Source of the DNA: an uncultured Verrucomicrobiales bacterium
Lineage (GTDB): Bacteria > Verrucomicrobiota > Verrucomicrobiia > Limisphaerales > Palsa-1400
Length of the DNA stretch: 37,937 nt
NCBI GenBank assembly: GCA_903898185.1
Contig: CAIUEN010000438.1
Coordinates: forward strand, 1-37,937
Direction: 5' to 3'
The first letter of the stretch is position 1. Each line of letters starts with the position of its first letter. Below are positions 22,952-27,421 of the stretch, piece after piece. The position numbers were made by a program, and so were the translations under genes. Under the pieces are notes generated by a model, which saw only the letters and a list, made by a program, of their open reading frames with translations, did no database searches and had not been told where the DNA came from.

Positions 22952-23281
22952 ATGAAGTTAACCGCTATCTGCGTAAGTGTTTTTTCTCTGGCCGCCGCGA
23001 CCGCGACGCTGTCCGCCGCCGATGCCAAGGTGAGCTATGAAACCCTTTGCGCCAAATGTCATGGGGCTGATGGCAAAGGTGCCACCACCATGGGCAAAAA
23101 GACTGGTGCCAAAGACTGGACCGACCCTAAAGTTCAAGCCGAGCTCAAGGACGAAACATTGACCAAAGCCATCAAGGAAGGCGTCAAAGATGGCGACAAG
23201 AGCAAAATGAAGGCATACGCCGATCTCTCGGATGGCGAAGTGAAAGCCTTTGTCGATTATATCCGTGCGTTCAAGAAGTAA
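22952..23281 (+). CDS. Monohaem class I cytochrome c, exported
   Basis: Signal peptide followed by CAKCHGADGKGATTMGKK...VDYIRAFKK. Confidence 0.9.
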   Translation: MKLTAICVSVFSLAAATATLSAADAKVSYETLCAKCHGADGKGATTMGKKTGAKDWTDPKVQAELKDETLTKAIKEGVKDGDKSKMKAYADLSDGEVKAFVDYIRAFKK

Positions 23282-23355
23282 CCCTTTTTCCGTACTTCAG
23301 CCAGCTTAAGAAGGCAGGTTGGATATTGGATGATTTGAAAATATTACCTGATCAA

Positions 23356-23688
23356 ATGAAAAAGACTTTCTTTCTGGCGGTTGCGCTACTGGCCACTGCT
23401 TTCACCAGCAATGCCGCTGACGTGAAGGCAAATTGGGATCAGCACTGCGCCAAGTGCCACAGTGCCGACGGCAAAGGCCAAACTGCCATGGGCAAGAAGC
23501 TCAAGGCAAAGGATTACTCCGACGCCAAGGTTCAGGACGCTCTCAAGGATGAAGAACTTCTGAAAGCCATTGTCGAAGGCGTCAAAGATAAGGAGACAGG
23601 CAAAGGCCTCATGAGAGGCTATGGCGACGTGTTTACTGCGGACGAAAACAAAGCGTTCGTGCCATTTATTCGAGCTTTTAAGAAATAG
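23356..23688 (+). CDS. Monohaem class I cytochrome c, paralogue of the preceding gene
   Basis: MKKTFFLAVALLATAFTSNAA signal peptide; CAKCHSADGKGQTAMGKK...VPFIRAFKK. Confidence 0.9.
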   Translation: MKKTFFLAVALLATAFTSNAADVKANWDQHCAKCHSADGKGQTAMGKKLKAKDYSDAKVQDALKDEELLKAIVEGVKDKETGKGLMRGYGDVFTADENKAFVPFIRAFKK

Positions 23689-23789
23689 CCGGGGCTTCAC
23701 CCCGCAGGAGATAGGATTTCCTTGCGGACATTCGTAGCGGAATTGGGGTGTGCCGCGCCGGTGAATTAAGAAAGCTTCCTTTTTTCCTT

Positions 23790-25262
23790 ATGTCATCCGA
23801 AATATCCACCCCGGATTCCCGTCCATCGTTTTATTCCTCATTTCGTAACTGGTTGAGCCTGATTGGATTAGCAATCATGCTCGGCAGTTTGTTTTCGTTT
23901 TTGCTCCTCTTTTTGCTGGATTCGATGGGCCGTTCGTCCAATCCTTATGTTGGAGTGCTCACTTACCTGATCGCTCCGATGTTCCTGATGGGCGGCTTGG
24001 GCTTGGCCTTGCTCGGTGGTTTCTTGCGACATCGCAAGTTTATCAAAACCCACGGCTCGGTGCCATTGAAGATTGATCTTTCCCGTCGAACCGACCGCCG
24101 GATCATGCTGATTTTCGTTCCATCGGCAATATTTTTCCTGCTGGTTTCGGCTGTGGGCGTCTATCATTAATATCACTACACAGAATCTGTGCAGTTCTGC
24201 GGTCAGGCATGTCACGAGGTTATGCAACCGGAGATGGCCACCCACCAACACTCCTCACATGCCCGCATCGCGTGCAGTGAATGTCATATCGGCCCAGGAG
24301 CAACGTGGTATGTCAGATCGAAGCTCTCAGGCGCCTACCAGGTTTATGCCGTCATGGCCAACAAGTTTCCCCGTCCAATACCGACACCCGTCAAGAATCT
24401 TCGCCCCGCCCAAGAAACCTGCGAACAATGCCACTGGCCCAGGAAATTCATCGGCAACCTCGATCGAACTTACGATTATTACCAGGGTGACGAGACTAAC
24501 ACTCCTTTCTCGGTTCGGCTAATCCTGAAGGTGGGCGGAGCCGACTCCTCGCGTGGATTAGTCGGCGGAATTCATTGGCATGTGAATCCCGGACGTTCGA
24601 TTGACTACATCGCCAGCGACGAAAGCCGCCAGACAATTCCATGGGTTCGCGTCACCGATGCCCAAGGCAATGTGACCGAGTATCGCACACCAAAGTTCAC
24701 CAATGAAGCCAGCGCTTCAACCATCCGGAAGATGGATTGCATGGACTGCCATAATCGTCCGGCTCACAAATACGAGTCGCCAGCCAAAGCCGTGAACATG
24801 GCGATGTCTGTAGGCAGCATTGATACCTCCCTGGGTTACGTTAAAACCAACGCCGTTTATGCCCTGACCCAGACCTATGCCACCCAGGAAGAGGGTGTCA
24901 AAAAGATCGCCTCGTTCCTGACAGAACGCTACCCCGGCAAGCGGATCGAAGGCACCATCGCTGCTATCCAAGGCATTTTCACCAACAATTTCTTCCCTGA
25001 GATGAAGGCAAGTTGGAAAAGCTACCCCGATAACATCGGCCACAAGGATTGGCCCGGATGTTTCCGTTGTCATGATGGAAACCACAAGACTGCGGACAAG
25101 AAACTGGCCATCAAAGCCAGCGACTGCAACACTTGCCACACCATTATTTCTCAGGGCAGCGGAGCGCAACTTGATCAATTGACAACCGGTGGCCAGGAAT
25201 TCAAACATCCCGGCGGAGAGTTTGATTCATCGTGCATTGATTGCCACGGAGGGGGGCAATAA
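23790..25262 (+). pseudogene. NapC/NirT-type 7-haem inner-membrane cytochrome c, split by in-frame TAA at 24168-24170 (ORFs 23790-24170 and 24171-25262)
   Basis: Same frame on both sides of the stop: ...[61 protein letters not shown]. The N-terminal part has TM helices. The C-terminal part has CGQACH, CSECH, CEQCH, CMDCH, CFRCH, CNTCH, CIDCH and no signal peptide or visible ribosome-binding site of its own. Confidence 0.8.
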
Positions 25263-27421
25263 TGCGTTTTTCTCCCCTTTTTGCACCCATGACATTCTTA
25301 AAATTCGTTTTTTTCCTTTTGCTCTTTAGCATCACCCCGGAAACCACTTGGGCGGCTGAGACCTTTTCAAACCAAGATTGCCTCGGTTGCCACTTGGATT
25401 CCACGATCACCCGCAAGATTGGAGGTAAGATCGTGCCTGTGGCGATTTTCCCAACCAACACCTTTCCAAGGTCGGTTCATGCCAAGCTCTCCTGCGTCGA
25501 TTGCCACACTGGGGTGAAAGAGTTGGTGCATGAACCGGGTGTGCCGCCAGCCACATGCACTGGGTGCCACAACGCCCAAGCCGACCATGAACACGCCGCC
25601 ACCAATTATTCAAACAGCATTCATGGGATGAGCAGGAAGGCCAATGGCGAGTCTTCAGCCGCAACCTGCTCCGACTGCCACGGTTCCCACGAGATCATGC
25701 CGGTTAAGGATTTATCCTCGCCGGTCTTCAAGCTGAACTTGGCCCAGACCTGCGGGAAATGCCACAACAACGCCCGCCTTAACGCCAACTATCGCATGAA
25801 AGATCCCGATGTGGCGTCGCACTTCAATGACAGCATTCACGGACGGGCTTTGCTGCAGGGACTGGTGGTTGCGCCGTCTTGCAGCGATTGCCATACGGCG
25901 CATAACATCAAGTCCTCAAACATTCCCCAGTCCTCAGTTCATCACCAGAACATCGCCGACACCTGCGGAAAATGTCACTTTGGCGTCGAGCAAACCTACA
26001 ATAAGAGCGTTCATGGGCAACTCCTTGCCAAGGGCGACAGACGCGGTCCGGTCTGCTCGGATTGCCACAGCGCACATGAGATTGAGCGACCTCGCCTCGC
26101 GCATTTCAAAGCGGCCAGCGACGAGCGTTGTGGCAAGTGCCACCAGAATCGTCTCGATCACTATCGCGAGACCTATCACGGCAAAGCCATGGCCTTGGGC
26201 AAGGCAAACCAAGCCCAGGATGTTGCCGCTTGCTACGATTGCCACGGCCACCACGATGTCCAGCCAAGCAGCAATCCGGCCTCTCATCTTGCAACCAACA
26301 ACATTGTCGCAACCTGTCAGAAATGTCATCCCGGAGCTACTGCCAGTTTCGCCAAATTCAGCCCGCACGCCAACCCGATGGACCGCGCCAACTACCCATA
26401 TCTCCATCTTACGTTCGTGGCGATGACCTCACTGCTGATCGGAGTGTTTCTGTTCTTCGGCGGCCACACTGGACTCTGGTTCTTTCGATCAATCTACCTG
26501 TTCCTCAATGATTCCAAGAGTTTCCGCGAAGCCAGGATTCATACGCAAAAAGATGAGGAATGGTTTACCCGATTCCTGCCCTTCGATCGGTTCCTACACT
26601 TTCTTGTGGTCACCAGTTTCCTGCTTCTGGTTATCACCGGCATGCCGTTGAAGTTCTATTACGCTGATTGGGCGAAAATCTTTTTCAAAGTCATCGGCGG
26701 ACCCGATGTGGCGCGTATCCTCCACCGATTTGGCGCTCTGATCACCTTCCTGTATTTCAGTTTGCACTTAGTCAAATTGGGTGCCAACGCCTGGATCTGC
26801 CGCAGACTTGGTCGCGATCCCATCACAGGCAAATGGAGCGTCAAACGACTGAGCCTAGTCTTTTTCGGGCCAGACTCCATCATCCCCACCTCGCAGGATT
26901 TGAGAGAGTTCGTGGCTCATCAGAAGTGGTTTTTCGGCAATGGCCCCAAACCACAATTTGATCGCTGGACCTATTGGGAGAAATTCGACTACTTCTCCGT
27001 GTTCTGGGGCGTGGCCATCGTTGGCATATCCGGCATGATCATGTGGTTCCCCGTGTTCTTTTCCCGGTTCATGCCCGGCTGGATCATCAATATCGCCTTG
27101 ATTATCCACTCAGATGAAGCCCTGCTGGCGGCAGGGTTCATCTTCAGTGTCCACTTCTTCAATACGCACTTTCGCCTGGAGAAATTTCCGATGGACACCG
27201 TGATATTCTCCGGTCGCATCTCAAAATCCGAAATGCTCCATGAGCGCAAGCGGTGGTATGATCGTTTGGTCGCCGAAGGACGTTTGGATCAATATCGCGT
27301 CAAAGATGACTGGGAAGGTTGGAAAAGCATCGCCCGGGCCTTCGGCTACCTGTTCTTTGGCATCGGCGTCACTCTGCTGATCCTGATCATCTATGCAATG
27401 ATCTCGCGCTTGGCGCGTTGA
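25262..27421 (+). CDS. 11-haem cytochrome c fused to membrane cytochrome b (HydC/FdnI-like) domain; CbcL-like architecture
   Basis: ATG overlaps the upstream stop (TAATG). CXXCH x11 in the N-terminal half; then at least 4 TM helices with conserved His (FDRFLHF, ALITFLYFSLHLVK, HSDEALLAAGFIFSVHFFNTHFR). Confidence 0.85.
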   Translation: MRFSPLFAPMTFLKFVFFLLLFSITPETTWAAETFSNQDCLGCHLDSTITRKIGGKIVPVAIFPTNTFPRSVHAKLSCVDCHTGVKELVHEPGVPPATCTGCHNAQADHEHAATNYSNSIHGMSRKANGESSAATCSDCHGSHEIMPVKDLSSPVFKLNLAQTCGKCHNNARLNANYRMKDPDVASHFNDSIHGRALLQGLVVAPSCSDCHTAHNIKSSNIPQSSVHHQNIADTCGKCHFGVEQTYNKSVHGQLLAKGDRRGPVCSDCHSAHEIERPRLAHFKAASDERCGKCHQNRLDHYRETYHGKAMALGKANQAQDVAACYDCHGHHDVQPSSNPASHLATNNIVATCQKCHPGATASFAKFSPHANPMDRANYPYLHLTFVAMTSLLIGVFLFFGGHTGLWFFRSIYLFLNDSKSFREARIHTQKDEEWFTRFLPFDRFLHFLVVTSFLLLVITGMPLKFYYADWAKIFFKVIGGPDVARILHRFGALITFLYFSLHLVKLGANAWICRRLGRDPITGKWSVKRLSLVFFGPDSIIPTSQDLREFVAHQKWFFGNGPKPQFDRWTYWEKFDYFSVFWGVAIVGISGMIMWFPVFFSRFMPGWIINIALIIHSDEALLAAGFIFSVHFFNTHFRLEKFPMDTVIFSGRISKSEMLHERKRWYDRLVAEGRLDQYRVKDDWEGWKSIARAFGYLFFGIGVTLLILIIYAMISRLAR

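Follow-up and report, generated by a model that had tools for sequence, protein, structure and literature searches.

A premature stop codon in an ImcH-like inner-membrane quinol oxidase gene of an uncultured Verrucomicrobiota bacterium

The window, a 37,937-nucleotide stretch from an uncultured Verrucomicrobiales bacterium, carries on its forward strand two genes for small monohaem cytochromes c (22952..23281, matching PF13442/PF00034, and 23326..23688, matching PF00034/PF13442), followed by an imcH-like gene with an internal stop codon and by an intact gene for a CbcL/MtrH/MtoC-like partner (25289..27421). The imcH-like gene occupies positions 23790-25262 as a single reading frame, which opens with an ATG at 23790, ends with a TAA at 25260-25262, and contains one internal TAA at 24168-24170 (codon 127), beyond which the same frame continues with no second stop. 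The initial annotation had described this TAA as splitting one frame at the membrane/haem junction, and both sequence and translation agree with its coordinates and description.

The 5' part of the gene (23790..24170) encodes 126 residues with no haem motif and with three predicted membrane helices, placed by hydropathy peaks at residues 24-42, 56-74, and 105-123; the AF2 helices, of low confidence and in agreement with hydropathy, lie at 21-46, 52-88, and 100-131. Its identity to the matching N-terminal region of intact homologues is 34-55%. The internal TAA falls 4 residues past the third predicted helix and just ahead of the first haem motif. The 3' part (24171..25262) encodes a predicted periplasmic seven-haem domain, recognized by its motifs, its Cytochrom_NNT and TIGR03153 matches, and its conserved columns. 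One CX3CH (CGQACH, residue 137) is followed by six CX2CH, at residues 162, 211, 317, 424, 446, and 482 of the 490-aa read-through protein, so the motif scan bears out the earlier claim that the downstream part keeps seven haem motifs and suffers no further frame damage. Also as annotated, this part lacks a signal peptide, and it has no membrane anchor. The first listed start after the TAA in this frame is a GTG at 24189, 18 bases beyond it; that no ribosome-binding site had been noticed near this GTG is weak evidence, because no clear one is seen at the upstream ATG at 23790 either. The predicted structure of the read-through protein has a mean pLDDT of 60, and a PDB fold search with it returned nothing meaningful. 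No second imcH-like copy was found in the source genome, a 535-contig assembly from environmental DNA.

ImcH proteins have ~500 residues, with three membrane helices at the N-terminus, an atypical CX3CH adjoining the membrane domain, and six further motifs of the CX2CH type; the third helix and first motifs, only part of the protein, resemble NapC/NirT (PMC6295460). Outside Geobacter, ImcH proteins carry 5-9 typical CX2CH, while the Geobacter group has lengths of 495-519 aa, and similarity between groups is 31.5-49% (PMC6295460). The window gene shares with this seven-haem quinol oxidase of the inner membrane, present in Geobacter and other organisms, the three N-terminal helices (by hydropathy and the low-confidence AF2 model), an atypical CX3CH near the membrane domain, six typical CX2CH, and, at 490 aa when read through, the overall length. 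It also shares the NapC/NirT resemblance of the third helix and first motifs and the presence of cytochrome c genes close by. It differs from ImcH in its TAA at codon 127, its Verrucomicrobiota host, and the CbcL-like gene directly after it.

Profile searches with the haem part gave a match to Pfam Cytochrom_NNT (8.9e-11), with the PF03264 domain cut-off exceeded (42.3 vs 24.1 bits). Matches to NCBIfam TIGR03153 NrfH (3.9e-13, 49.6 of 134.2 bits) and to NCBIfam NapC/NirT (23.8 of 310.6 bits) stayed under the curated cut-offs, and that of TorC was likewise missed. Around its first haem motifs the protein matches the NrfH structure PDB 2j7a chain C (E 5e-4) as well as TIGR03153, and in this it is like the NrfH and NapC/NirT quinol dehydrogenases. 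NrfH, however, is a far smaller protein that has four haems and a single membrane helix, whereas the window protein has seven haems and three membrane helices. The label 'NapC/NirT-type' in the initial annotation is therefore right for part of the protein but too broad for the whole, whose layout is that of ImcH. Judged by its architecture (helices, haem motifs, length), the interrupted gene is an ImcH-like inner-membrane quinol oxidase gene, and we file it as a broken member because the TAA at codon 127 interrupts a polypeptide that is continuous in relatives.

In those relatives, almost all of which, where titled, belong to Verrucomicrobiota, the intact product is one protein of ~490-520 aa with 47-63% identity to both window halves over its whole length, which confirms the annotation's view that the two halves form one protein. 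A non-redundant alignment of 100 sequences has T in 60, S in 21, A in 16, V in 1, and one gap at the stop column, in addition to the stop of the window itself. This was the comparison that the annotation had proposed, along with a search for the same stop in related genomes, and none of the 98 homologues has a stop codon at this column. None has Gln there, which makes the annotation's suggested origin of the TAA from CAA unlikely and argues against Gln as the ancestral residue at codon 127. Among the one-step neighbours of TAA, only TCA (Ser) encodes a residue observed at the column, and the ancestral codon would most simply have been TCA. Elsewhere the window protein deviates in 1 of the 89 strongly conserved columns (>=95% conserved), by a V to I change. 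Measured against 63 near relatives, its mean identity is unremarkable for both the N part (z = -0.6) and the haem part (z = -0.9), as is the ratio of the two (z = 0.1). Neither part evolves unusually fast, so the lesion appears young, and any loss of function of the imcH-like gene would therefore be recent, if there has been a loss at all.

The imcH-like gene was found in 135 of the 320 genomes of the order, and the in-frame stops listed for it are only those of the source genome (TAA), G001 (TAA), G140 (TGA), and G111 (TGA). The stop in G111 sits in a second, partial copy, and the copy in G264 has the look of a frameshift. G001 is a member of the window's family; at its locus L144, the in-frame TAA is at codon 379, a different and variable position, the gene retains all seven haem motifs, and it is followed by a hemE-like sequence (by eye), the cbcL-like partner being missing. 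In G005, of the same family, it is the cbcL-like gene that carries a stop (locus L277), a TAG in place of the window's Ser (FGPDSMIPT*QDVKDF vs FGPDSIIPTSQDLREF). Stops in the module thus affect 3 of 9 copies in the window's family vs ~4 of 220 elsewhere (Fisher p ~0.001), a rough post-hoc count with approximate denominators, in which some copies are fragmentary and assembly completeness is lower for G001 (81%) and G005 (67%). This hints at recurrent loss of the imcH/cbcL-like module in the family, a lead and not a result.

We consider it probable that the imcH-like gene was broken by one recent nonsense substitution, in the genome itself or in a strain that dominates the sample. The residues found at the stop column in the 98 homologues support this, as does the retention of seven haem motifs and 88 of the 89 conserved columns; the different TAA in the imcH-like gene of G001 and the TAG in the cbcL-like partner in G005 point the same way. 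Counting against it, there is no decay beyond the stop, and the family pattern comes from a few fragmentary assemblies and was noticed afterwards. Under this explanation, a single substitution would, most simply, have changed Ser TCA to TAA at codon 127, and translation would stop past the third membrane helix, leaving a haem-less membrane stub of 126 residues and no working ImcH-like protein. Even with an internal restart of translation, the seven-haem domain would have nothing to direct its export and would be unable to acquire its haem in the periplasm. The intact product would be expected to oxidize menaquinol in the inner membrane and hand electrons to periplasmic multihaem cytochromes. 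Because the stop leaves ~1.1 kb untranslated, expression of the cbcL-like gene may drop by polarity, although the cbcL-like protein alone could perhaps still act as a quinol oxidase. As a conserved gene undamaged apart from a single premature stop, the locus resembles bacterial nonsense pseudogenes and shows nothing distinctive among them; most likely it is a young pseudogene or strain variant of this ordinary kind and not a new mechanism. A literature search on ImcH as a pseudogene gave nothing usable.

A sequencing or assembly error, in which case the organism would have a sense codon at 24168-24170 and make a normal ImcH-like protein, is a less likely but serious alternative. In a fragmentary assembly of 535 contigs, one wrong base call would look identical to a nonsense mutation, the change is a single base with no further damage, and no near-identical independent sequence was found to confirm the TAA. 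The initial annotation had listed nonsense mutation and sequence error first among its options, and these are the two that find support. We compared 504 kb of the source genome with 1.23 Mb from another genome of the family in ~134 matched stretches (~42,000 codons), a set that includes some spurious off-frame matches, and the TAA of the imcH-like gene was the sole stop inside a conserved gene. By eye, the other stops flagged in this comparison either preceded a start codon or fell in spurious alignments, antisense or off-frame. Control genes of the family (EF-G, the PilB/GspE family, and RimO) contained no in-frame stops, a RimO TGA in two relatives being located beyond the gene end. Together these results speak against a generally poor consensus, though they bound the error rate only loosely. 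For the stops in two related assemblies to be errors as well, this gene pair would have to have been hit independently each time. In the same-family assembly G002, frameshifts break EF-G (contig 79, 10302-12325) into three pieces, which points to indel errors there, so assemblies of this family are not error-free.

Readthrough or decoding of the TAA at codon 127 to give a full-length protein, an option that the annotation had also raised, is very improbable, and the joint production of the full seven-haem protein and the haem-less stub by such readthrough a shade more so. In its favour, the entire downstream frame is intact and conserved, but there is no stop-reading anticodon among the 36 tRNA genes called by ARAGORN in the source genome, an incomplete set in which, for example, Phe, Tyr, and Ile tRNAs were not seen. 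Nor does any other in-frame TAA occur in the compared genes, and these incomplete samples together argue against genome-wide recoding or a suppressor tRNA. The RNA fold after the TAA is unremarkable (z = -0.9), which gives no sign of a recoding structure, and no homologue has a stop at this column. In bacteria, besides, UAA with U as the next base usually terminates translation efficiently. Such readthrough of UAA in a respiratory cytochrome, if true, would be highly unusual. The remaining option of the annotation, a functional split gene whose membrane and seven-haem subunits are translated separately, draws on the break at a domain boundary and the GTG 18 bases past the TAA, but it is just as improbable as readthrough, since the ~98 homologues are all single proteins with no naturally two-gene form seen among them, the GTG would leave only three codons ahead of the first haem cysteine, and export for haem attachment goes unexplained for a part with neither signal peptide nor membrane anchor.

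The partner gene of the probable pseudogene is intact. ATG 25289 was the start used for it in searches, further-upstream in-frame starts being possible. By profile matches, motif scan, and hydropathy, its product has an N-terminal multihaem part with 11 CX2CH and a C-terminal membrane part like the HydC/FdnI cytochrome b, the layout of the CbcL/MtrH/MtoC family; the cytochrome b matches (formate dehydrogenase gamma and cytochrome b556 at residues 430-504, and PF01292) are all under their cut-offs. The multihaem part in this family carries 3-23 CX2CH, and most members have six helices (PMC6295460). Unlike most of them, the downstream gene shows only four clear helices by simple hydropathy, and it adjoins imcH. 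The order cytochrome c, imcH-like, cbcL-like (22952-27421) is conserved in dozens of Verrucomicrobiota loci. All three occur together in 42 of 111 related loci, and imcH-like with cbcL-like in 20 more, a count in which some cbcL-like matches are weak or on the other side; small cytochrome c genes were matched around the imcH-like gene in ~72 of the 111. A 2018 survey gave one ImcH and four CbcL homologues for Verrucomicrobiota, far fewer than the loci found here. About 7 kb downstream in the window lies an MqnA/MqnD-type gene for menaquinone biosynthesis (PF02621; 34130-35017), which fits a menaquinol-based chain.

If the stop is real, this bacterium would recently have lost its only detected ImcH-like quinol oxidase, and annotation alone would therefore overstate its capacity for electron export. 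The neighbourhood of cytochrome c, imcH-like, and cbcL-like genes, found in many Verrucomicrobiota, merits more attention than the stop.
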